DNA of 36,585 bases, from the NCBI GenBank assembly GCA_028710485.1, contig JAQTTZ010000032.1:1-36585 (forward strand). Direction: 5' to 3'. This DNA is from Bacteriovorax sp. GTDB lineage: Bacteria > Bdellovibrionota > Bacteriovoracia > Bacteriovoracales > Bacteriovoracaceae. Positions 1 through 14,648 of the stretch are shown piece after piece. The translations under genes and the position numbers were made by a program. How positions within the stretch are numbered: the first letter of the stretch is position 1; each line of letters starts with the position of its first letter. Under the pieces are notes generated by a model that saw only the letters and a list, made by a program, of their open reading frames with translations, was not told the origin of the DNA and ran no database searches.

Positions 1-98
1 CCGAGCTAATTATGATCGACTTCTTGTGAAGGTTTTCACCTGGCTTCAAGTTATTAATAATTTGGGGGATATTTTTATCGAATTTTCTGAATTTAAAA

Positions 99-161
99 TG
101 GAGCGGATTACAAGGATTGAACTTGCTACCTTCTCGATGGCAAGCAAACGCTCTACCACTG
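99..161 (-). repeat. Displaced tRNA-Gly 3' fragment (copy 1)
   Basis: This segment matches the intact tRNA-Gly at 6286 from the CCA end through the T arm, anticodon loop and into the D loop, 59 of 63 positions by hand alignment. One mismatch is in the T-arm junction and three are in the anticodon stem. Beyond 161 the similarity stops, so the 5' acceptor strand is missing and it cannot be a working tRNA. It is best read as the outermost attachment-site remnant left when DNA integrated at the 3' end of tRNA-Gly. Confidence 0.85.
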
Positions 162-192
162 CTACGAATTTATGTATATTCTCATAAAATAG

Positions 193-230
193 TTCCTATT
201 ATCTAGATACCGCTTATTCTCCTCAGAAAT
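193..230 (+). repeat. Cassette left-end repeat, copy 1
   Basis: The first 26 bases match 2644-2669 with two mismatches, centred on the palindrome ATCTAGAT followed by ACCG. After it a looser T/C-rich run and AGAAAT are also shared. It sits 94 bases inside the tRNA fragment, against 86 in cassette B. A recombinase arm site is the likeliest role, by inference. Confidence 0.6.
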
Positions 231-430
231 AGATTTTTCGTTTTAGAATTTTTTATGATCAAAATTTATGTTTCGATTGTTAAATTCAGAGCTTTTGCTT
301 AAAACAAGCATTAGTTGGGATATGAAAATGGTATTGGTGACAAATGGAAAGCTTCGTAATTCAAGCTAGTTGCCTGTCTTGGAAATCATGGTATCTTAAT
401 TTTAGTTAAAGCTTAGGTCGGAGAAAAATT
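231..430. other. AT-rich leader of cassette A
   Basis: There is no convincing gene here. The stretch is AT-rich and should hold the promoter of the small-protein/PIN pair, but I could not pick out a clear -35/-10 pair or an inverted-repeat operator. A ribosome binding site GGAG at 420-423 serves the gene at 431. Confidence 0.4.
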
Positions 431-616
431 ATGAGTAATAACGAAGAAAAATCAGCAGGACAATTAATGAGAGAAGAGTTTTGGGAAAAAAAGAAAAAAC
501 TAAAAGCTTCTCCTGAACTACTGGCAAGATTTAAGAAAAAAGAAAAAAATTCTTCAAAGGAAGAATCACCTATTAAGAAAGTTGCTCGCCCTAATTCCCC
601 TGAAACAGGAATATAA
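431..616 (+). CDS. Small basic protein, candidate antitoxin of a PIN pair
   Basis: This 61-residue protein is highly charged and Lys/Glu-rich, with no signal peptide or membrane segment. The middle is predicted helical (residues 8-40) and the Lys/Ser/Pro-rich tail looks disordered. GGAG lies 7 bases before the ATG. Its TAA overlaps the ATG of the PIN gene by one base (TAATG), so the two are translationally coupled. A small charged protein just upstream of a PIN nuclease is the usual antitoxin position, but I recognise no DNA-binding fold, so this role is inferred from position only. Confidence 0.65.
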   Translation: MSNNEEKSAGQLMREEFWEKKKKLKASPELLARFKKKEKNSSKEESPIKKVARPNSPETGI

Positions 617-1347
617 TGAAAATTAAAATTTCTGAGCTAGAAAGACTGATTCAATCCCATCCAGAGCTTAAAAAAGGATGCATCGTTGATACAAATATAG
701 TTTTCGCCTTTTCATTTCCACTTGATACTTTTAACGAGTGGGCAGAAGAAGTTGTAAGCACTTTACACAAACTCAATATCCCAATTTATACAAATCTAAA
801 TGTTCGCTCTGAGTTTATTGATCTCAATCGTAGGGTGATGATTCCTGAGGGACTAGTTGATTTTTACGATGAGATTGACGGCTCTTTTGATGAAGGTACT
901 GTCATTGCAAAGCTGAAATCATTAAAAACAAGAAAAAGAAAAGCAGAAGATGAAGGAAGAACTTTTAAGTTGAGTGATTCGGAAATCAAACAATATAGTG
1001 AACTTCTTAATCGCATTCCTTGGGTAGATGGAGAAAGTAACTGGACACTTTTTTGTCGTGATTATTTTGCTCCATATATTGATGACGTTTGGGAGAGAGC
1101 CGTTAAGCGAATGAAAATCAATTTTCTTGGCACAAGGGAAATCGAAAGCAAAGAGTTTTTCGAGAAACATCCATCATGGGAAAACATGGTAAAGATTGTT
1201 GGATTGTCTGGGCTTGGTTCTTCTGATGCTATGATCGTAAATCTCTTTCAGGAATCAAAGATCCCGCTGATGATTACGGCCGATGTTGCTGTGAAAAATA
1301 TGTTATTGGAATTTATGACTTCAGAGAATTTCGTGCTTGCTCCATAA
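616..1347 (+). CDS. PIN-domain nuclease, candidate toxin
   Basis: This 243-residue protein has the acidic residues of a PIN-fold ribonuclease in order: VDTN (D25) at the end of the first strand, RSEF (E66), SSDA (D204) and TAD (D223). PIN toxins are usually about 130-150 residues. Here a charged helical insert of roughly 90 residues (about 90-185) separates the two halves of the active site, as in larger PIN families associated with toxin-antitoxin pairs. It overlaps the upstream small gene by one base. Metal-dependent RNA cleavage is expected from the fold; target and toxicity are unknown. Confidence 0.75.
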   Translation: MKIKISELERLIQSHPELKKGCIVDTNIVFAFSFPLDTFNEWAEEVVSTLHKLNIPIYTNLNVRSEFIDLNRRVMIPEGLVDFYDEIDGSFDEGTVIAKLKSLKTRKRKAEDEGRTFKLSDSEIKQYSELLNRIPWVDGESNWTLFCRDYFAPYIDDVWERAVKRMKINFLGTREIESKEFFEKHPSWENMVKIVGLSGLGSSDAMIVNLFQESKIPLMITADVAVKNMLLEFMTSENFVLAP

Positions 1348-1436
1348 CTTGCAGAGAGCATTAACAAGTTTTCTCAAAGAATGTAAAACTTTAAACTATT
1401 AAGTTTAGTGCAGAAATAAAAAATATTTGATATAAA

Positions 1437-2408
1437 ATGTTCATGAAAAATCATCGCTTCATCATGGAAAAATTTTTATCTAAGAATAACTTTCCACCAA
1501 AATCACATTTTAGAACTATTAATCGAAATGACATCGTTGCTTTAGGCGATCTTTTATATGAAGCAGATCTTGGCACAGTTGATGATGAAGGACTTCCGGT
1601 TGAAGACTCAATAAATGAAATTGAAAATACTTTAAGTGGAAAGTATGGGAAATTCCTAGAACGCTCTTCATTTGTTGCTATAGAAAATTCAAAACCTATT
1701 GCCGCTGTACTTTTTACTTTTTATGAAAAAGAATCAATGCCATTGCTTGCTTTTACCATGACTCATCCAAAATATAAAAATAAAGGACTTTGTAAGGATT
1801 TACTACAAGTTGCTTTTACACAACTCGAAAAAAATAACTATCAAAAATGTTTTCTTGCTGTGAATGCAGCTAACCTTCCGGCCGTTGCGGCTTATAAGCG
1901 GGTGGGGTTTGAAATTCGTGAATCAACCAATTTTAACAATATAGCTAAAGATTTTTGGAATACCTATCTTTCACAATTGCCCGAGGGCCAGCTTCATACA
2001 ATAAGTGTAAACAATCCGCTTTTTGTTGAAAGTTCATTTGCTGGTAATGCTCTTATTACAGATGAGTTAATTCAATTGATAATCGAAGGTAAAAAATTTG
2101 CAGGTAGTAGTCTTGTTCAAGATTTTAAAACGGTAGGAGATCCATTACCTAGAGTCGGTAATTTTTGGATTGCCCTGGATAAAAATGAAGAGCCGAAATG
2201 CATTTTGAAGACAGTTCGAACAGAGATAAATAAATTCAATAATATTACAGAGGAAATTACTAAGGCGGAAGGCGAAGGTGATTGCACTATTAGATATTGG
2301 AAACAGGTACATCAAGAGATCTATACGCCATTTTTAGAACAATGGGGTATTGAGGATTTGAATGAGACAGAAGTCATTACAGAGTTTTTTGAAGTTGTTT
2401 TTAAATAA
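1437..2408 (+). CDS. GNAT acetyltransferase-ASCH domain fusion
   Basis: Residues about 25-170 form a GNAT N-acetyltransferase domain: the acetyl-CoA loop is visible as KYKNKGLCKDLL, and NAANLPAVAAYKRVGF is the usual motif B. Residues about 195-323 match the ASCH/YqfB (DUF984) RNA-binding-like family, with LITDELIQLIIEGKK, a GNFWIALD strand and an EGEGDCTIRYWKQVH segment. Each half is normally a separate protein. The start is uncertain: ATGs occur at 1437, 1443 and 1464 and none has a strong ribosome site. Substrate is unknown. It is the last gene of cassette A. Confidence 0.75.
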   Translation: MFMKNHRFIMEKFLSKNNFPPKSHFRTINRNDIVALGDLLYEADLGTVDDEGLPVEDSINEIENTLSGKYGKFLERSSFVAIENSKPIAAVLFTFYEKESMPLLAFTMTHPKYKNKGLCKDLLQVAFTQLEKNNYQKCFLAVNAANLPAVAAYKRVGFEIRESTNFNNIAKDFWNTYLSQLPEGQLHTISVNNPLFVESSFAGNALITDELIQLIIEGKKFAGSSLVQDFKTVGDPLPRVGNFWIALDKNEEPKCILKTVRTEINKFNNITEEITKAEGEGDCTIRYWKQVHQEIYTPFLEQWGIEDLNETEVITEFFEVVFK

Positions 2409-2460
2409 TTTTTTTTGGAAATAAATTTATACTGATAATTATCTAACTCAATCGAATGAC

Positions 2461-2557
2461 AATTAGAACACTTCTACTATTCTATCCATTTTGAATGATT
2501 TTCTATCCATTTCAGAATTAATTTTTTCGATAAATGTGAATGATCTCAGAGACTAAA
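2461..2557 (+). repeat. Cassette right-end repeat, copy 1
   Basis: These 97 bases align without gaps to 6189-6285, 82 of 97 identical by hand count. Both end directly at the CCA of a tRNA-Gly sequence. Inside is a direct repeat TTCTATCCATT at 2480-2490 and 2501-2511, 21 bp apart, which places both copies on the same face of the helix. This is the arrangement expected of recombinase or accessory-factor binding sites. Confidence 0.75.
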
Positions 2558-2618
2558 TGGAGCGGATTACAAGGATTGAACTTGCGACCTTCTCGATGGC
2601 AACGAGACGCTCTTCCAC
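2558..2618 (-). repeat. Displaced tRNA-Gly 3' fragment (copy 2)
   Basis: The first 56 bases (2558-2613) are identical to the CCA end, T arm, anticodon arm and part of the D arm of the intact tRNA-Gly at 6286. Similarity fades over the next five bases and the acceptor 5' strand is absent. It is the junction between the two cassettes. Identity with the intact gene is higher than for copy 1, which suggests a younger insertion. Confidence 0.88.
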
Positions 2619-2643
2619 ACCTATACTTCACTCTAAAAGCAAT

Positions 2644-2683
2644 TTCCTATAATCTAGATACCGGTTATTTTTTTTCAAATTAG
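2644..2683 (+). repeat. Cassette left-end repeat, copy 2
   Basis: The first 26 bases match 193-218 with two mismatches and contain AATCTAGATACCGG. A T-rich stretch and TTAGAAAT follow, as in copy 1. No third copy is seen beyond the intact tRNA, as expected for an unoccupied side. Confidence 0.6.
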
Positions 2684-2757
2684 AAATTATCTTAGATATA
2701 TTTTGTTACATGAGGGACAAATGATATTGTCGTAATTACATTTGGTTACGTTCAGGG

Positions 2758-2786
2758 AATATACAAAACTTCCCGGTTTGTATATT
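2758..2786. promoter_or_regulatory. Inverted repeat in cassette B leader
   Basis: AATATACAAA (2758-2767) is the inverse of TTTGTATATT (2777-2786). Outside it TTCAGG (2751-2756) can pair with CCTGAA, and GTTAC with GTAAC, so a larger structure is possible. No T-run follows, so it is not a typical terminator. It may be a second operator or a structured cassette end. Confidence 0.35.
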
Positions 2787-2842
2787 ACCTCGGGTAACTA
2801 CCTGAATCTTAAGTCTTTCGGATACTTGATTATTGAAGCCAT

Positions 2843-2878
2843 TTGATATATACTAATGTTTGACTTGGTATATATCAA
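2843..2878. promoter_or_regulatory. vapBC operator (inverted repeat)
   Basis: TTGATATATAC (2843-2853) and GTATATATCAA (2868-2878) form a perfect 11-bp inverted repeat with a 14-bp spacer. It ends 18 bases before the vapB ATG. VapB-type antitoxins with the AbrB-like fold bind such repeats together with VapC to repress their own promoter, so this is the expected autoregulatory site. The role is inferred from position and symmetry. Confidence 0.65.
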
Positions 2879-2896
2879 TAAGTGAAGGGGGTTAAA

Positions 2897-3145
2897 ATGT
2901 CAGCTGCAAAAGAAACAACTTTATTTATGAATGGCCGCAGCCAGTCTCTTAGAATTCCTCATGAAATGAGACTTATTGGAGAAAAGGCAAAGATTCAAAA
3001 GATTGGAAATATGCTTATTGTTACTGAAGCAGATTATGAAAATCCTTTTCTTGCCCTTGATCTTGCTCAAAGTTTAATCTCAGATGATTTTATGAAAGAT
3101 GGGCGTGATCTTAAATCGATCCAAGAAAGAGAAGACCTTGAATGA
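2897..3145 (+). CDS. vapB: VapB-like antitoxin
   Basis: This 82-residue protein starts with the swapped-hairpin AbrB/VapB DNA-binding pattern: TTLFMNGRSQSLRIPHEM, then KIQKIGNMLIVTEAD. The C-terminal half is the acidic segment expected to wrap VapC. The ATG at 2897 has AAGGGGG at 2885-2891, whereas an in-frame GTG at 2882 has nothing, so I use 2897. It overlaps vapC by four bases (ATGA). It should neutralise VapC and repress the pair through the inverted repeat just upstream. Confidence 0.85.
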   Translation: MSAAKETTLFMNGRSQSLRIPHEMRLIGEKAKIQKIGNMLIVTEADYENPFLALDLAQSLISDDFMKDGRDLKSIQEREDLE

Positions 3146-3576
3146 TCTACCTGCTTGATACAAATACATTGATTGCGCTTTTTCACAGAAGAGAGCCGAC
3201 CAATACTTACCTTAGGACAAAAAAGCCTGAAAATCTTTTTTTATCCGGTGTAACGATAGGTGAAATCTTTTATGGAATTGAGAAGAGTTCTTTTGAGAGC
3301 ATCGCTAAAAATCGGGTAGCAAGGGAAGCTATTATGACCCAGTTTCAGCACGTCTATACGGATCAGTCTATCTCAGAAGAGTACGGAAAAATTAAAGCAG
3401 AGCTGTCTGCGAGCAAAAGCTATAGTCCTAATAATGAAAATGATATTTGGATAGCTGCTCATGCGAGAGCAAAATCTTATATATTAGTTACTGAAAATCT
3501 TAAAGACTTTCAGAGTATTCAGGGATTATCTATTGAGTGTTGGGCTGATAATCCTATTAAAGTCATTCAGACGTAA
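3142..3576 (+). CDS. vapC: VapC-like PIN toxin ribonuclease
   Basis: At 144 residues it has the normal VapC length and PIN active-site residues: LLDTN (D6), TIGEIFYG (E41), NDIWIAAHA (D101) and VTEN (E118, in the place often held by Asp). VapC enzymes are magnesium-dependent ribonucleases that cut tRNA or rRNA. The ATGA overlap couples it to vapB. It lies at the start of cassette B, where it could stabilise the cassette by post-segregational killing. The target RNA cannot be read from sequence. Confidence 0.85.
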   Translation: MIYLLDTNTLIALFHRREPTNTYLRTKKPENLFLSGVTIGEIFYGIEKSSFESIAKNRVAREAIMTQFQHVYTDQSISEEYGKIKAELSASKSYSPNNENDIWIAAHARAKSYILVTENLKDFQSIQGLSIECWADNPIKVIQT

Positions 3577-3603
3577 AAAAATATCTCTACAATAGAGATT
3601 CAA

Positions 3604-3630
3604 AGCAAGAAAAAATCTTGCTAAATTTTT
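3604..3630 (+). terminator. Terminator after vapC
   Basis: AGCAAGA and TCTTGCT form a 7-bp stem with an A5 loop, followed by AAATTTTT. A second small hairpin, ATCTCTA/TAGAGAT, lies just before it at 3583-3599. Together they would separate vapBC from the lipoprotein gene. Confidence 0.5.
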
Positions 3631-3676
3631 CTTCTGTAACTAATATATAAAAAAGCAATAGGGAGAGAGAGGTTTC

Positions 3677-5152
3677 ATTCATAACAAAACAATCCTTTGG
3701 TTCGCAATCTGTTTATCACTTCATATATTGTGTGGATGTTCACAAGTCCCTTTACATCAAAAAATAGTTGAACTAAATCTTTTAAAGATAGAGCCTCTCA
3801 AATCACCAGAACTTTCTTCATTCCCCTTGGCGGAAAAAACTCTTTTATTTGACTCTAAAAAAATAAGAAACAAAAATATCGATTTTGACCTCAATGGAAA
3901 TTTAATGTTACCTCCCGGTGACTATATTATACCGGTAATGACTTATTGTATGAATCATAGTGGGTCTAGTCCCGATGCTCATTCGTACACATTAAGTAAG
4001 CTTGAAGGAAGCAGGGCCCAGGTCATCCGAGAGTTGAATTTAATGGCCCCATTAAAATTCAGCGTAGAAGATATTCAGATTACATCGTGGAGTATTCAAG
4101 CGGGACTTTCTTATGAGGAAATGACAAAGATTAGCCAAAATGTCGTAGATCTCATCTTGCGAAAATATAAAGAAGAGTTAAAAGAGTCTTATCTCAAGAT
4201 CGCCGAGAAAAAATGGAATGCTTTGGCGAACTCAACTCAAGGAATCATGCCAGATTTTAACGAAGCATCAAATCAGGTTATCGACAATCTTGGTGAAGTC
4301 GGAATTAAAATTAATGACTATAGAAAATTTAAAACTGAGCTGAGTGAAATTGGACATAATTATCAAGAACTAAGTAAAATGATTCAAACTTCTGGCAGAT
4401 TATCGCGAACGAAAAAAAATGAAACACCATGGTCAATAATTTCGCCAAATGTTTATGCTCGATTTATTACGGACGGGCATTTTAATCAAATTGTCTTTTT
4501 GCAGATCAAAGTAACTCAAGAAGCTCAACAACGAAAAATTAATTCAATTACTGATGAAAGAGTATTGGTCGATATAGGATCATTAATTGGTAATCCTAAT
4601 GATAAGAATGTTCAGCCATTATCTTTTTCAATGTTTTTAAACTCTCAAGGTGTTTGGGCTGTTCCTGTTTTAATAGAATCTCCAGTTGCAGCAGGATTGA
4701 TATTAGCGGCTATCATTGCAGCTCAAAAAATTAACTGGGATTCTTTTTTTGATTTGTATGATTATTTAAAAGATTCTAAATCAAAGGAAATTCGAAATGA
4801 AATTGACAAAGGGCTTCGGGCTTTGCAGGAAGCGCACGATGAGCTTGAAAAAGAATTAAAAGAAGTCGGAATAATTTCAGGCAAAACGAAAGATACTACA
4901 AAAAAAGAAAAGAATCCAACACGAGAATACGAAAAGGCAGGAGGGGACAAAGAACTAGAAGAAGATTTTAATAAGTTGCCTGGTATTCGGATAAAACCAC
5001 CGGACGGCATTGAGTATAAAGTAATTTCCAATGATTCAAAAGCAATTAAACGTCTTAGAGATGGGGACAAACCTCCTACGTTAGAAATTCAGCCTTTAAA
5101 GGATTCTACTAAGTATTTTCATAAATTAAGAGTAAAGGTAAGGTACAAATGA
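3677..5152 (+). CDS. Lipoprotein with toxin-like C-terminus
   Basis: Read from an ATT at 3677 (ribosome site GAGAGAGG at 3665-3672), the protein starts with a basic-hydrophobic signal ending LCGC|SQ, a good lipobox with the second Cys lipidated. A TTG at 3728 would leave only MCGC and lacks a ribosome site. An N-terminal segment (LPPGDYIIPVMTYCMNH, later EDIQITSWSIQAGL) resembles a family of secreted proteins with a YCL..G signature. A hydrophobic stretch (VAAGLILAAIIAA) and a charged coiled-coil region follow. The last 75 residues (PPDGIEYKVISN, PTLEIQPL, LRVKVRYK) recall C-terminal domains of polymorphic toxins. Toxin activity is inferred. The stop overlaps the next gene. Confidence 0.6.
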   Translation: MHNKTILWFAICLSLHILCGCSQVPLHQKIVELNLLKIEPLKSPELSSFPLAEKTLLFDSKKIRNKNIDFDLNGNLMLPPGDYIIPVMTYCMNHSGSSPDAHSYTLSKLEGSRAQVIRELNLMAPLKFSVEDIQITSWSIQAGLSYEEMTKISQNVVDLILRKYKEELKESYLKIAEKKWNALANSTQGIMPDFNEASNQVIDNLGEVGIKINDYRKFKTELSEIGHNYQELSKMIQTSGRLSRTKKNETPWSIISPNVYARFITDGHFNQIVFLQIKVTQEAQQRKINSITDERVLVDIGSLIGNPNDKNVQPLSFSMFLNSQGVWAVPVLIESPVAAGLILAAIIAAQKINWDSFFDLYDYLKDSKSKEIRNEIDKGLRALQEAHDELEKELKEVGIISGKTKDTTKKEKNPTREYEKAGGDKELEEDFNKLPGIRIKPPDGIEYKVISNDSKAIKRLRDGDKPPTLEIQPLKDSTKYFHKLRVKVRYK

Positions 5153-5640
5153 AAGAAAAATCGGATTTCGTTAAAGGTGTTCTTAGGGAGCGTTGGAAAA
5201 CTCCTATCATGCATAACGACCAGTTGTGGCTTCATTTTATTCTACAAACAATAACAGGAATTCACTTTTTTTTTACCCTAGATCAAGAAGAAGAAATTCA
5301 TATAATGACGATTGATAGCGGAACACCATACAGATTCACAGATGAATCTTTAGGGTACCATTGTATTGGAAGATATTTTAGGACAAAAAAACCTTTTAAT
5401 TCTAAAATTAAAAGATGTTCAACTTGGAAGCTTTGGAACACTTCTTTTATCTTAGATTTGGAAACAGGAAATGCGTTGTCTGGATATGCTAAAAAAAGAG
5501 ATAAAAATTATTTTGAATATTTAATTTCCTCACAAGATGAGTACATTGAATTTGTAACACCTACTCCTCCTGTGTGGGAGCTTCGTAAAAATGTGAAAAT
5601 TGATAAATTGATAAATGAATACGTAAAAAAAGCACTTTAA
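5149..5640 (+). CDS. Hypothetical protein, candidate immunity partner
   Basis: This 163-residue soluble protein has no signal peptide and no family I recognise. It is aromatic-rich (LWLHFILQ, IHFFFTL, STWKLWNTSF). Its ATG overlaps the stop of the lipoprotein gene in ATGA, so the two are co-translated. A small cytoplasmic gene directly behind a secreted protein with a toxin-like C-terminus is the classic immunity position. The coupling is seen; the immunity role is inferred and could be wrong if the upstream protein is not a toxin. Confidence 0.6.
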   Translation: MKEKSDFVKGVLRERWKTPIMHNDQLWLHFILQTITGIHFFFTLDQEEEIHIMTIDSGTPYRFTDESLGYHCIGRYFRTKKPFNSKIKRCSTWKLWNTSFILDLETGNALSGYAKKRDKNYFEYLISSQDEYIEFVTPTPPVWELRKNVKIDKLINEYVKKAL

Positions 5641-5703
5641 AAATAAGAGTGAGTAGCATTTGCCTATTAAATTAAAAAAGATATATATGAGCAGAGGGCC
5701 AGT

Positions 5704-6150
5704 ATGAACTCAAGTCTGAAAATAGTTCCAATGATAAACAGCGATCTTGAGGAGGCTTTCATATTTTATAAAGTATCACTTGAAGATGTTATCGCTAAGA
5801 CTTTTGGATGGAATGAAGAATTTCAAAGGAGCAGGTTCTTTAATCAATATCAACTTAATTGGTTTTACTGGATTAAGACAGATTCTCAACGTGTAGGTTA
5901 CATTTGCTTTTGGCAATCTGACTTAGAAATTCATGTCTCGTTAATAATTATAGTCCCAGAAAAACAAAGACATTCATATGGCCGACAGATAATGCTTCAC
6001 TTGCATAACCAAGCTCGCGAATCCGGTCGCAAGATTACTCTCTCTTCATTTAAAAAGAACGAAGAAGCCATTCGATTTTACGAAACTCTTGGCTATAAGA
6101 TAATTGGAAGTGATGAGAACTTTGTAGATATGGCATTTACAGTTTTATAA
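5704..6150 (+). CDS. GNAT family N-acetyltransferase
   Basis: This 148-residue single-domain protein has the GNAT core: a beta-4 strand VSLIIIVPEKQRHSYGRQIML (acetyl-CoA loop degenerate relative to RxxGxG/A) and the motif B region EEAIRFYETLGYKIIG. The ribosome site is CAGAGGG before the ATG. It closes cassette B, just as a GNAT-containing protein closes cassette A, but the two are not obviously close relatives. Substrate is unknown. Confidence 0.75.
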   Translation: MNSSLKIVPMINSDLEEAFIFYKVSLEDVIAKTFGWNEEFQRSRFFNQYQLNWFYWIKTDSQRVGYICFWQSDLEIHVSLIIIVPEKQRHSYGRQIMLHLHNQARESGRKITLSSFKKNEEAIRFYETLGYKIIGSDENFVDMAFTVL

Positions 6151-6188
6151 CTACTAATTTTCTTTAATTTAAGAATAATCAAAATAAT

Positions 6189-6285
6189 AATTAGAACACT
6201 TCTACCTTTCTAGCCATTTGTGGTGATTTTCTAGCCATTGCAGAATTTTCTTTTTCGAAAAATGTGAATGATTTCAAAGACTAAA
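6189..6285 (+). repeat. Cassette right-end repeat, copy 2
   Basis: This is the gapless partner of 2461-2557 and abuts the CCA end of the intact tRNA-Gly. It contains the direct repeat TTTCTAGCCATT at 6207-6218 and 6228-6239, again exactly 21 bp apart. The T-to-G change is shared by both repeat units (TCTAT in copy 1, TCTAG here), which suggests the two units change together. Confidence 0.75.
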
Positions 6286-6360
6286 TGGAGCGGATTACAA
6301 GGATTGAACTTGCGACCTTCTCGATGGCAACGAGACGCTCTACCACTGAGCTAAATCCGC
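6286..6360 (-). tRNA. tRNA-Gly (anticodon GCC)
   Basis: The reverse complement folds as a complete tRNA: acceptor GCGGATT with AATCCGC, D arm GCTC/GAGC around AGTGGTA, anticodon stem TCTCG/CGAGA with loop TTGCCAT (anticodon GCC), variable AGGTC, T arm GCAAG/CTTGT with loop TTCAATC, discriminator T and an encoded CCA. It reads GGC and, by wobble, GGT glycine codons. It is the intact target of the cassette insertions, whose 3' fragments lie at 2558 and 99. Confidence 0.96.
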
Positions 6361-6431
6361 CTAAAAACTTAAAAAATCGAAAACAACTAACTATTTCTGC
6401 CACTCTGACCATTGAAAAATACACTTTTACA

Positions 6432-6485
6432 ATCTGGGACTTCTGCATGATAAGCAGAAGCTCTAGCTAATTGAGCTAATCCCGC
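6432..6485 (-). pseudogene. Truncated tRNA-like fragment (Asp-like anticodon AUC)
   Basis: On the minus strand GCGGGAT-TA-GCTC-AATTAGCTA-GAGC is followed by a TCTGC/GCAGA anticodon stem with loop TTATCAT. It then reads AGTCCCAGATT and breaks off where the T loop should be; no matching ATCCCGC acceptor strand follows. The D loop lacks the conserved GG, and the anticodon would be AUC. It looks like the 5' two thirds of a tRNA, upstream of and parallel to tRNA-Gly. It may be a decayed gene or an old integration scar. Confidence 0.5.
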
Positions 6486-8936: not shown

Positions 8937-9898
8937 AGCTTTTGAGTCTTGATTAACCACTGCTGGATTTCTTCGGCACTAGGATGTCGAAGTGCAGTTA
9001 TTTTATTGAGTTTGAACGATTTATACATATCACTCAACAAGCAGCGAGCATATAAAATATTTCCATCGGGCGTGTTGAGCAAACTCGTCAGTTTTATTGG
9101 GCGGAATTTGTTTTTATGAGTACCACCGGTATATTGAATTTCAATCACCGCAGCTTCTTTGACTAATTTATTTAATTCTTCCAAATGCAAAGGTAGTTCT
9201 TGAGTTTTTAATTCGTCGAACTGCTCCAGAGAAAAAAGAAATCCGTGAGATTTTAAATCGGCCTTTTGTTTTTCAGGCTGATTTTCAACTTTAAGCCTCT
9301 CTAAACCTTTGATAAAAACCATGAGTGAGGCAAAGGCATCATCAAGCGCTCTGTGATGGTTGAGCAACGGAATATTGAGTTCTTTAACTAAGGTAGCAAG
9401 TTTGTGATTGATCACTTCTTTATGCGTGATGCGTGCCATTTTGCATGAGCAATAGATAAGGGCGGAAGAAAGTTTTATTTTAGCTCGAAGCAGTCCCATT
9501 ACGATAAAGCCCAGATCGAACTTGGCGTTGTGGGCAACAATTGGTGTTTCACCCAAAAATTCTTTGAACTCCTGCAGGACTTCAATTAATTTTGGTGAAG
9601 TCTGGACCATATCATCGGTAATATTGTGAATGGCCGTTGTATGCGGCGGAATGAGGATTTCAGGATTTATAAGGGTCTCATAGAGGCTAATCCCTTCTTT
9701 GGTGACTTTAAAGGCCGCTATTTCAATGATTCGATCAACAAGGGGAGAAAGACCGGTGGTTTCCAAATCGATGGCAATAAGGCCTTCGGGGAAGAATTCT
9801 AATAGCGTTTCAAGCTCCGCGTTAGTTAAATCCATGCCCTTAGTATCACTAGAGATTCTTGAGTTTGAGAGAATAATTTGTGTTGAAGTTTTTATCAC
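8933..9898 (-). CDS. DEDDh exonuclease with WYL-like C-terminal domain
   Basis: Residues about 38-205 are a DnaQ/epsilon-type 3'-5' exonuclease: AIDLETTG (D44, E46), HNAKFD (D128) and HHRALDDA (H182, D187), the complete DEDDh set. Residues about 245-321 (IEIQYTGGTHKNKFRPIKL to SFKLNKITALR) resemble a WYL ligand-binding domain. The GTG at 9898 has a weak ribosome site; an ATG at 9835 is an alternative and loses nothing of the fold. It heads an operon with ATGA overlaps. A role in DNA or RNA repair is likely; ligand control through WYL is inferred. Confidence 0.8.
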   Translation of the reverse strand: MIKTSTQIILSNSRISSDTKGMDLTNAELETLLEFFPEGLIAIDLETTGLSPLVDRIIEIAAFKVTKEGISLYETLINPEILIPPHTTAIHNITDDMVQTSPKLIEVLQEFKEFLGETPIVAHNAKFDLGFIVMGLLRAKIKLSSALIYCSCKMARITHKEVINHKLATLVKELNIPLLNHHRALDDAFASLMVFIKGLERLKVENQPEKQKADLKSHGFLFSLEQFDELKTQELPLHLEELNKLVKEAAVIEIQYTGGTHKNKFRPIKLTSLLNTPDGNILYARCLLSDMYKSFKLNKITALRHPSAEEIQQWLIKTQKL

Positions 9899-13041: not shown

Positions 13042-13923
13042 ATGCCTAAAATTTCCGGTTTTACATTTATAAAAAACGGTCTCACTCTCGGGTATCCAAT
13101 ACTCGAGAGTGTACTTTCTATTGAACCAATCTGCGATGAAGTTATTATCAATGTAGGTTTCGAAGACGCTGAACTCACTATAGATGATGGCACTTATAAA
13201 TATTTAACGGACCGTTTGAAAGATCCTAAATACAAATTTATAAAGAGCTGGTGGGATCCAACGATTAAAAAAAGTGGAGTTATCCTTTCTCAGCAAACCA
13301 ATATTGCATTGAACGCTTGTACCGGGGATTATTGTCAGTACATCCAGGGGGATGAATGTATTCACGAAGATGATTTGAAATACATTCTTGCCGGCGTAGA
13401 AGAGATGGAAAAAGATCCGCGCATAGATGGGCTTATTTTTAATTATATGCACTTTTATGGAAACGTTGATACTTATAAATACACCCGCAATCTTTATCGT
13501 CGCGAAGTACGCTTGATCAGGAATCATAAAGGGATAAAATCCTGGCTTGATGCTCAAGGTTTTAGAAATGCAGACGATACAAAAATAAGAGCGCGATTAA
13601 TTTCAGCTCGTATTTTTCATTATGGTTGGTCAAGGGCCGAGCAAGTCATGAAGAATAAAGTTAAAGTCTTTGATACTTTTTATCACGAAAAAGAACGCGA
13701 TGTTAAAGAATTCCAATACGAACGCAATTGGGGACTGACAAAGTTTACCAAGACTCATCCACGTGTCATGAAAGAGTGGATTGAAAAAAATAAAAATCCA
13801 ATTGATTTGATGTCACTGCCTCTTAGCTGGGGGAGTAATCTTTTCGGGCTAGTCATTAGTGATACGATCGAGAAGTTTACCGGCTATCGAATCGGTGAAT
13901 ATAAAAACTATAGGAAAATATAA
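13042..13923 (+). CDS. Glycosyltransferase family 2-like protein
   Basis: The protein has 293 residues. The start (KISGFTFIKNGLTLGYPILES) and the following CDEVIINVG strand resemble GT-A enzymes that act on surface polysaccharides. The QGDECIHEDDL segment is in the usual place of the DxD-type metal site, although here it reads GDE. There is no membrane segment. Its stop overlaps the next ATG by one base, coupling it to the FkbM methyltransferase. Donor and acceptor sugars are unknown. Confidence 0.7.
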   Translation: MPKISGFTFIKNGLTLGYPILESVLSIEPICDEVIINVGFEDAELTIDDGTYKYLTDRLKDPKYKFIKSWWDPTIKKSGVILSQQTNIALNACTGDYCQYIQGDECIHEDDLKYILAGVEEMEKDPRIDGLIFNYMHFYGNVDTYKYTRNLYRREVRLIRNHKGIKSWLDAQGFRNADDTKIRARLISARIFHYGWSRAEQVMKNKVKVFDTFYHEKERDVKEFQYERNWGLTKFTKTHPRVMKEWIEKNKNPIDLMSLPLSWGSNLFGLVISDTIEKFTGYRIGEYKNYRKI

Positions 13924-14648
13924 TGAAGTCAGATTATGAGTATCCCCTGAATTATTTCTTGGATAAATTAAATATTCCCAAGGGCAAATTTGTCGATGTT
14001 GGGGCCAATGATGGAATGATTGGAAGCATGACCTATGATTTGGAAAAAAATGGTTGGAGTGGAATTCTCATTGAACCAAATCCAACTCTTGTTGAACATT
14101 TAAAAAAAATTAGAACTTCTCCCGTTTTTCCTTATGCTATTTCGTCTACAGAGGGTGATTTGCCTTTTTATATTGTTGAAGGCCCGGATAATTTACACGG
14201 TCTTTCTCGTTTTAATTATACAAAAGAATTTGAAGACCATATTAAAAAATGTGGTGGCTCTGTTAAGAAGACAATTGTCCAAGTGAAAAAGATTTCAAGC
14301 ATCATGAAAGAAGCCCAAAATTTAGATAGTGTAGATTTTTTAAAAGTTGATGTTGAAGGACATGAGTTTGAAGTTTTAAAAAGTTTTGATTTTGAAAAGT
14401 TTCATCCTCGCCTAATCGTGACAGAGGACAATTTTAAAGATTCCGACAAATCGGTTCGCCGTTTTCTTCACTCAAAAGGCTACGCGGTAATTGCCAGAGA
14501 CAGGCTTAATTATTGGTTTGCTCCAAAGTCAGAAATAAAACATTTTCTTTATGATTATATTCATTCCAAAATTCGTTTTCTTCGATGGGATGTGAAAAGA
14601 TTCATTTATCGTTTAATTAATAAGAAATTTCAAACGGGTAATAATTAA
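13923..14648 (+). CDS. FkbM-family methyltransferase
   Basis: This 241-residue protein has the FkbM pattern: KFVDVGANDGMIGS for SAM binding, GILIEPNP, and DFLKVDVEGHEFEVLKS near the C-terminal half of the domain. FkbM enzymes O-methylate sugars or polyketides, and next to two glycosyltransferases a methylated surface glycan is the most likely product. It is translationally coupled to the gene before it and ends one base from the convergent glycosyltransferase. Confidence 0.85.
   Translation: MKSDYEYPLNYFLDKLNIPKGKFVDVGANDGMIGSMTYDLEKNGWSGILIEPNPTLVEHLKKIRTSPVFPYAISSTEGDLPFYIVEGPDNLHGLSRFNYTKEFEDHIKKCGGSVKKTIVQVKKISSIMKEAQNLDSVDFLKVDVEGHEFEVLKSFDFEKFHPRLIVTEDNFKDSDKSVRRFLHSKGYAVIARDRLNYWFAPKSEIKHFLYDYIHSKIRFLRWDVKRFIYRLINKKFQTGNN

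Follow-up and report, generated by a model that had tools for sequence, protein, structure and literature searches.

We analyzed a 36,585-nucleotide stretch of Bacteriovorax DNA (the window), which is the entire contig C98 of genome G000 (4,296,179 bases in 234 contigs) and which carries a tandem array of small cassettes beside an intact tRNA-Gly(GCC) gene. The tRNA gene was detected by ARAGORN and by Rfam (69.5 bits), and two further copies of its 3′ part, oriented like the gene, divide the region into blocks with start-to-start spacings of 2,459 and 3,728 base pairs (bp). This arrangement confirms the gene, fragments and blocks that a first-pass annotation had described from the letters of the window, and the shared ends that it had reported for the two blocks were also recovered: the left-end motif is 92% identical over 26 bp (193-218 and 2644-2669), and the right ends (2455-2557 and 6183-6285) are 83.5% identical over 103 bp without a gap. 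The array comprises the following features.

99..161, minus strand: distal tRNA-Gly 3′ part, the array's outer boundary; 59 of 63 bases match the tRNA; loop equivalent at 137-143; within the overlap with contig C81
99..2557, plus strand: cassette 1 (2,459 bp), the stretch between consecutive tRNA copies
162..255, plus strand: left arm of cassette 1, with the motif TAGATACCG at 204
2455..2557, plus strand: right arm of cassette 1, with the direct repeat TTCTATCCATT, its units 21 bp apart and the first at 2480
2558..2618, minus strand: tRNA-Gly 3′ part at the boundary of cassettes 1 and 2; 60 of 61 bases match the tRNA, the first 56 being identical; loop equivalent at 2596-2602
2558..6285, plus strand: cassette 2 (3,728 bp), again the stretch between consecutive tRNA copies
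2614..2707, plus strand: left arm of cassette 2, with the motif TAGATACCG at 2655
6183..6285, plus strand: right arm of cassette 2, with the direct repeat TTCTAGCCATT at 6208 and 6229
6286..6360, minus strand: intact tRNA-Gly(GCC), the putative integration target; anticodon loop at 6324-6330, the proposed crossover

Window positions 1-194 overlap another contig of this genome, C81, at 193 of 194 bases, and C81 runs 9 kb further into other genes, which would limit the array to two cassettes with a known outer flank, provided that the join of the two contigs is correct. The sole difference in the overlap is position 127, which is one of the four mismatches between the distal fragment and the tRNA and at which C81 has the tRNA base; it reflects either strain mixture or an assembly error. 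An assembly artifact was ruled out as the source of the array, since genome G011 has this layout within a contig of 102,772 bp and C81 shows the array edge. Chance repeats were likewise ruled out, because the exact runs are long and other genomes have the same ends; the tRNA copies and conserved ends are real.

An alignment of seven right ends and six left ends from four genomes (G000, G008, G010 and G011) revealed that the ends of different cassettes can be aligned as a right arm of approximately 95 bp, a tRNA core and a left arm of approximately 90 bp. Beginning at the tRNA 3′ end, the core hardly varies as far as the anticodon loop (ATGGCAA). The right-arm motif TTTCTAGCCATT, or a near variant, is present as two units 21 bp apart in four of the six ends scanned and as a single unit in the G011 end at 9409 and in contig C180 of G008; contig C209 of G008 was outside that scan. 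Just past the loop, three of the six left ends read CGAG, as the tRNAs do, and the other three read GCAA; the match to the tRNA then resumes (ACGCTCT). Because GCAA is present in fragments but not in the tRNAs, the exchange would be placed in or before the anticodon loop. Right arm, core and left arm, in that order, form the layout of a phage-type attP, and the tRNA cores with arms at the cassette boundaries appear to be retained attL- and attR-like sites. Taken together, these features suggest that the region is probably a series of small integrative cassettes in tandem, which are non-autonomous and were inserted by a tyrosine recombinase that acts in trans.

Occurrence and movement among related genomes

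We compared the locus across 14 genomes of the genus (G000 to G013). Arms, extra cores or both were found in four of them (G000, G008, G010 and G011), and seven (G001, G002, G005, G006, G007, G012 and G013) encode the tRNA at 98.7-100% identity with no second core. The other three (G003, G004 and G009) gave weaker matches only and are uninformative; G003 and G004 carry another tRNA-Gly(GCC) next to the same flanking genes. The G011 contig holds two cassettes, and beyond the outer fragment its flank matches the empty sites in G005, G002 and G013 (z scores of 13.2, 10.8 and 9.7, respectively, against 300 shuffles), so that both flanks of the empty site are clear for this genome. The locus shows an intact tRNA and a displaced, near-identical 3′ part, and relatives have the empty site, which together form the pattern of site-specific integration at a tRNA gene.

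The conserved ends are restricted in their distribution. Arm matches were confined to this genus among 129 genomes of the family, the 14 included (E <= 1e-9, six candidates scored per genome). Within the 14 genomes, a right-arm pattern that recovers four of the seven known right ends and a left-arm pattern that recovers five of the six known left ends each matched in arrays only, with no matches in backward controls. The first-pass annotation had proposed an insertion site that is modular and has been used more than once, comparable to a cassette array with a tRNA fragment as its attachment site; a locus invariant in gene content, with its repeats found nowhere else, would contradict this. Both the comparison of the locus and the search for the right end support the proposal, because relatives show sites without a second tRNA copy, cargos that differ by species, and the same ends.

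Some of the cargo is shared at high identity. The closest pairs are G000 and G008 (94.7% over 2,076 bp), G000 and G010 (94.3% over 1,812 bp), G008 and G010 (95.1% over 1,805 bp), and G008 and G011 (96.9% over 1,052 bp). Because these stretches are 94-97% identical where the chromosomal flanks of the same species are 73-79% identical, the comparison indicates recent movement of some stretches, not all. It also bears on the idea that the region is an ordinary, immobile stretch of chromosome with tRNA pseudogenes. A tRNA relic does exist here, but presence and absence across the 14 genomes, cargo swaps, and stretches far above flank identity contradict immobility and leave that idea hardly credible; plain tRNA pseudogenes were rejected as an account of the fragments.

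The relic, at 6413-6485 on the minus strand, resembles a degenerate tRNA (22.3 bits with the Rfam tRNA model, below the cut-off); over 47 bp, its 5′ half is 89% identical to the tRNA-Gly(GCC) that G003 and G004 have here. The tRNA-Gly gene at this locus seems to have been exchanged, perhaps via loss from an old tandem pair. In G003 (L050:3918-4060, compared with L044 and L042), the tRNA-Gly body is different, and the sequence after its CCA is, by eye, almost the same as at empty sites that have the usual tRNA-Gly.

The cargo also looks mosaic, which is what would be expected if foreign DNA, once taken up, had recombined homologously through flanking tRNA copies or shared cargo with no site-specific recombination today. 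A stretch in contig C209 of G008 is 97% identical to G011, and a stretch in contig C180 of G008, which encodes a lipoprotein described below, is 95% identical to G000 and 79-83% identical to G011; this point is suggestive only, since C209 and C180 are possibly different cassettes. However, homologous recombination alone makes no new tRNA-bounded inserts with arms, the boundaries coincide with the tRNA, and the arms reach beyond the shared core. We consider this explanation quite improbable.

Recombinases and the proposed route of integration

We searched the arrays for an integrase using a profile built from recombinases of the genus, which detected two positive controls at E values of 7.7e-24 and 2.8e-17. 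No integrase frame, whole or broken, was found in ten array stretches that cover 50 kb at four tRNA species (best E 0.29), and thus the arrays do not encode a cognate tyrosine recombinase on the element itself. A Pfam scan of the eight cassette proteins of the window revealed no recombinase or transfer gene, and it revealed no serine recombinase among them, for which a genome-wide search was not made.

Candidate tyrosine recombinases were sought elsewhere by searching the 14 genus genomes and eight further family genomes for PF00589 (E <= 1e-8 in the genus). The four array genomes contain 31 matches, and the neighborhoods of 27 were retrieved. No match of the genus lies on a tRNA-Gly array contig, several of which are short. 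Across 56 sequences, integrase neighborhoods included, profiles derived from the cassette ends recovered the known ends, with no other match below E 0.26. In a recombinase tree that included ten frames from the array genomes (three from G000, two from G008, two from G010 and three from G011), these frames formed no group common to all four genomes. The genus g36 contains four loci with recombinases of 316-324 amino acids (aa), three of which were scanned and scored highest with XerC/XerD models, below cut-offs; no link was found between these loci and the arrays. The integron-integrase model TIGR02249 gave scores of 52-75 against a cut-off of 265 for ten recombinases of eight family genomes, a minority of the recombinases. 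Matches in phage records (seven) and plasmid records (two) lay entirely within the tRNA segment (bases 102-166) of the 246-base query and included none of the arms.

Two recombinase arrangements recurred in these searches. Loci L052 (contig C187 of G000) and L188 (contig C167 of G103) each encode two adjacent tyrosine recombinases of 352 and 479 aa, which are close in the tree despite belonging to two different genera; the G000 copy shares its contig with tRNA-Leu(gag). Loci L191, L196, L200 and L204, and similarly L070 (contig C119 of G000), encode recombinases of 302-324 aa with a gene for 183-234 aa directly upstream, and the upstream proteins of the four g36 loci are alike by eye.

We propose the following route. 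Each cassette would exist as a circle in which the right arm, the tRNA-Gly 3′ core and the left arm form attP. A tyrosine recombinase encoded outside the cassette would bind the arms, and the core would recombine with the chromosomal tRNA-Gly gene in or near the anticodon loop. The 3′ part carried by the cassette would restore the intact tRNA, and the old 3′ part would end up on the distal side of the insert. With the tRNA restored after each insertion, the next cassette could enter at the same place, such that the array would grow at the tRNA with the oldest cassette outermost.

Several observations weigh against this route and against the reading on which it is based. None of the 27 PF00589 neighborhoods contains arms, and a recombinase that uses the arms was not found; scans of viral contigs for the core, right-arm and left-arm patterns gave 0, 0 and 0 matches. 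The split between CGAG and GCAA occurs even within otherwise near-identical G008 and G011 cassettes, so that one fixed crossover is insufficient, and the core's match to the tRNA continues beyond the loop (ACGCTCT). The outer flank of G000 matches the empty sites weakly (z scores of 3.3-3.7), and that of G008 has no match to them in the shuffle-scored comparison. Shared cargo other than the closest pairs is 77-87% identical, hardly above the chromosomes, with G011 and G000 at 80-84%. Finally, G000 has an estimated contamination of 8%, and all genomes compared are draft assemblies.

An alternative is that the cassettes are the decayed remains of integrase-bearing islands, or strict cis-mobilizable elements (CIMEs), which are now fixed and occasionally moved in cis by a neighboring element. 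Decay to CIMEs is a published route to tandem structures (the portion of PMC5704250 cited here), and integrase-free ssrA islands are read as decayed islands in the corresponding part of PMC3146451. Furthermore, at a tRNA-Leu gene of genome G091, the end of an integrase gene (a 65-aa frame) lies beside the same lipoprotein and partner pair that the cassettes carry. However, no integrase remnant is present in the 50 kb of arrays, a result that an old deletion would also produce; some integrase-free stretches are near-identical across species, which suggests that they travelled without an integrase gene in the stretch seen; and the ends of different cassettes remain alike. On balance, decay appears unlikely, although it is the strongest competitor to integration in trans.

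If integration in trans is correct, genes would spread and accumulate by site-specific integration without an integration gene of their own, and a borrowed tRNA end with arm sites of approximately 100 bp would suffice. Such cassettes would escape island finders that start from an integrase. Cassettes of approximately 2.5 kb with defined arms also offer an easily tested case for the source of the recombinase. The arrays would, in addition, connect predatory bacteria with a mobile pool of genes that are toxin-antitoxin-like or toxin-immunity-like.

Cargo and arrays at other tRNA genes

The eight accepted cassette genes of the window all lie on the plus strand and point toward the tRNA.

431..616, plus strand: 61-aa open reading frame in cassette 1, possible antitoxin of the next gene by its position; no Pfam or PADLOC match
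616..1347, plus strand: 243-aa protein, cassette 1; sub-threshold Pfam PIN match (E 0.082)
1437..2408, plus strand: GNAT acetyltransferase fused to an ASCH domain, cassette 1; Pfam ASCH 7.3e-15, Acetyltransf_1 2.2e-10
2897..3145, plus strand: VapB-like antitoxin, cassette 2; NCBIfam VapB 2.9e-16, below the curated cut-off
3142..3576, plus strand: VapC-like PIN toxin, cassette 2; Pfam PIN 6.9e-16; NCBIfam VapC 1.8e-26, below the curated cut-off
3683..5152, plus strand: putative polymorphic-toxin-like lipoprotein of approximately 489 aa, cassette 2; start codon uncertain; nearly invariant lipobox-like cysteine
5149..5640, plus strand: 163-aa partner, candidate immunity protein, cassette 2; no Pfam family; relatives directly follow the lipoprotein gene in aligned loci
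5704..6150, plus strand: GNAT acetyltransferase, cassette 2; Pfam 3.2e-11

Comparison of the cassettes suggests a common plan, in which a toxin-antitoxin-like or nuclease-like slot would follow the left arm, a lipoprotein-toxin-like gene and its partner would often occupy the middle, and a slot for GNAT or another enzyme would precede the right arm. Behind the left arm, G000 carries the VapBC-like pair (cassette 2) or the 61-aa frame with the weakly PIN-like protein (cassette 1), and G011 and G008 carry a 130-aa protein with a helix-turn-helix protein, a pair that we read as HigBA-like, or a DUF6036/AbiEii-like nucleotidyltransferase with a 221-aa protein. The lipoprotein and 163-aa partner occupy the middle in cassette 2 of G000, both G011 cassettes, C180 of G008, and G010; one cassette in C209 of G008 retains just a 198-bp piece of the partner gene. 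Ahead of the right arm are GNAT genes in G000 and G011, an RmlD-like gene in the same slot in G010, and DUF4269 in G008, with the slot shortened in C180. PADLOC returned weak matches only.

The N-terminal and middle part of the lipoprotein matches a protein of a Nostoc plasmid (hhalign 99.9%), which ends in CdiA_C (1.8e-18) and precedes a gene annotated as SitI3 family. Because of this relative, we infer that the pair is a polymorphic-toxin-like lipoprotein with a candidate immunity protein. The lipoprotein's own C-terminal end has no Pfam match, and the 163-aa partner has no match to the SitI3-family protein P0002 from the Nostoc locus. Profiles of both proteins gave no match to PDB sequences at E 1, and Foldseek gave no match of either model to the PDB at E 0.001, with a predicted local distance difference test score of 56.7 for the lipoprotein model (poor) and 83.7 for the partner model (fair). 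Cyanobacterial plasmid proteins at L218:3635-5935 and L219:3629-6079 have the same N-terminal and middle part, and the CdiA_C end and SitI3-family neighbor of the Nostoc one hint that this part is a polymorphic-toxin domain without a name so far.

Members of the lipoprotein family are present in 14 of the 129 family genomes, and a scan of genome contigs identified 16 loci in records titled Bacteriovorax, Bacteriovoracaceae or Bdellovibrionales; the domain alone is also present in two cyanobacterial plasmids. We retrieved all 20 contigs with lipoprotein matches away from tRNA-Gly. A tRNA was called in 13 of these 20 stretches (Pro in four, Phe in four, Glu with Lys in three, Leu in one and Thr in one), and in each of these 13 the lipoprotein gene is located downstream of the tRNA 3′ end and reads in the direction of the tRNA, which is the reverse of its orientation in the tRNA-Gly arrays. 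Because tRNAs number 25-32 detected per genome, or one per 110-135 kb in the four genomes checked, this association is far above chance.

Several of these loci show tRNA-bounded blocks. At a tRNA-Glu (L142), 3′ copies of 17/17 and 13/17 bases bound blocks of 1.9 and 5.8 kb, and a 300-base repeat of 97% identity (9013-9312 and 13921-14220) lies in neighboring blocks, by its coordinates in a region of small antitoxin-like and 234-aa genes. A 20-base copy bounds a 3.7-kb block at tRNA-Pro (L138), and blocks of 0.9-3.0 kb lie at tRNA-Phe (L140, L147 and L149). For tRNA-Phe, 15 sites were found in 11 loci, five of the 15 being the tRNAs themselves, compared with 0.63 on average and at most 8 in 60 permuted controls. 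By eye, boundaries at these other tRNAs carry a hairpin and T-run shortly after CACCA, and BrnT/BrnA, Phd-like, ParE-like and HigB-like genes are found within the arrays. Because arm profiles did not find the Gly arms in these arrays, a separate recombinase for each tRNA target would fit.

Other observations complicate this extension. The tRNA-Phe-like fragments are imperfect, with 3-4 mismatches in 17 bases, which speaks against a simple picture. Its generality is weakened by the seven of 20 stretches without a tRNA call: the gene begins at a contig end in L141, L145 and L150, but no tRNA was called despite upstream sequence of more than 8 kb in L134 (a gene fragment), L136, L137 and L148. 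We therefore put forward only tentatively, as a possibility somewhat short of even, that Bacteriovoracaceae use tRNA-Gly, -Phe, -Glu and -Pro genes as integron-like docking sites for integrase-free cassette families, each with its own core and arms, which would be loaded and unloaded by recombinases in trans, with the lipoprotein and partner cargo passed between families that target different tRNAs.

Comparison with known systems

Integron arrays consist of small exchangeable cassettes that are rich in toxin-antitoxin genes, have their integrase outside the cassette and grow at one end. The arrays described here would resemble them in those features and differ in using a tRNA 3′ part with arms as the site and a tRNA gene as the target. 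With tRNA-targeting phages and islands they share a core that extends from the anticodon loop to the 3′ end and arm-type sites, whereas those elements have their own integrase; mycobacteriophage L5 in tRNA-Gly is an example of this anticodon-loop type of site.

The likeness to SitBAI of Myxococcus, a lipoprotein with a variable toxin end followed by an immunity gene and often located on mobile DNA (as described in the cited part of PMC5562445), is limited to the cargo: a lipoprotein and a following gene, known here from sequence, whose 163-aa product lacks the SitI3-family match noted above. Hitcher elements have been reviewed (PMC11389934). Among the matches listed in the open-licence PMC literature, no title concerned tRNA-bounded cassette arrays in Bdellovibrionota.

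The first-pass annotation knew of no named element of this form, a statement that does not stand, as two close relatives have been named. CIMEs have lost their integration and transfer genes and kept attL and attR (PMC5704250, in the part cited), and the arrays share with them the retained att sites, the lack of integration and transfer genes, and a tandem position at a gene 3′ end. They differ from CIMEs, as that part describes them, by the absence of detectable integrase remnants, blocks of 0.9-5.8 kb, a recurring design, and near-identical stretches across species. The ssrA islands of Dehalococcoides are also tandem beside an RNA gene and bounded by its 3′ fragments, with 15 lacking and 16 carrying an integration module according to the cited sections of PMC3146451. 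Those islands involve the serine recombinase DsiB and a 20-bp repeat at tmRNA, whereas the match here is approximately 60 bp of tRNA-Gly, and the arrays examined yielded no recombinase; with tRNA-Gly as the target, the present arrays are not of the DsiB and ssrA type. By analogy, the arrays would work like CIMEs and ssrA islands, whether or not they decayed from a larger element. Relative to the cited parts of these two papers, what appears to be new is how very small the cassettes are, their uniform design with conserved arms and no integrase, and the use of several tRNA genes within one family.

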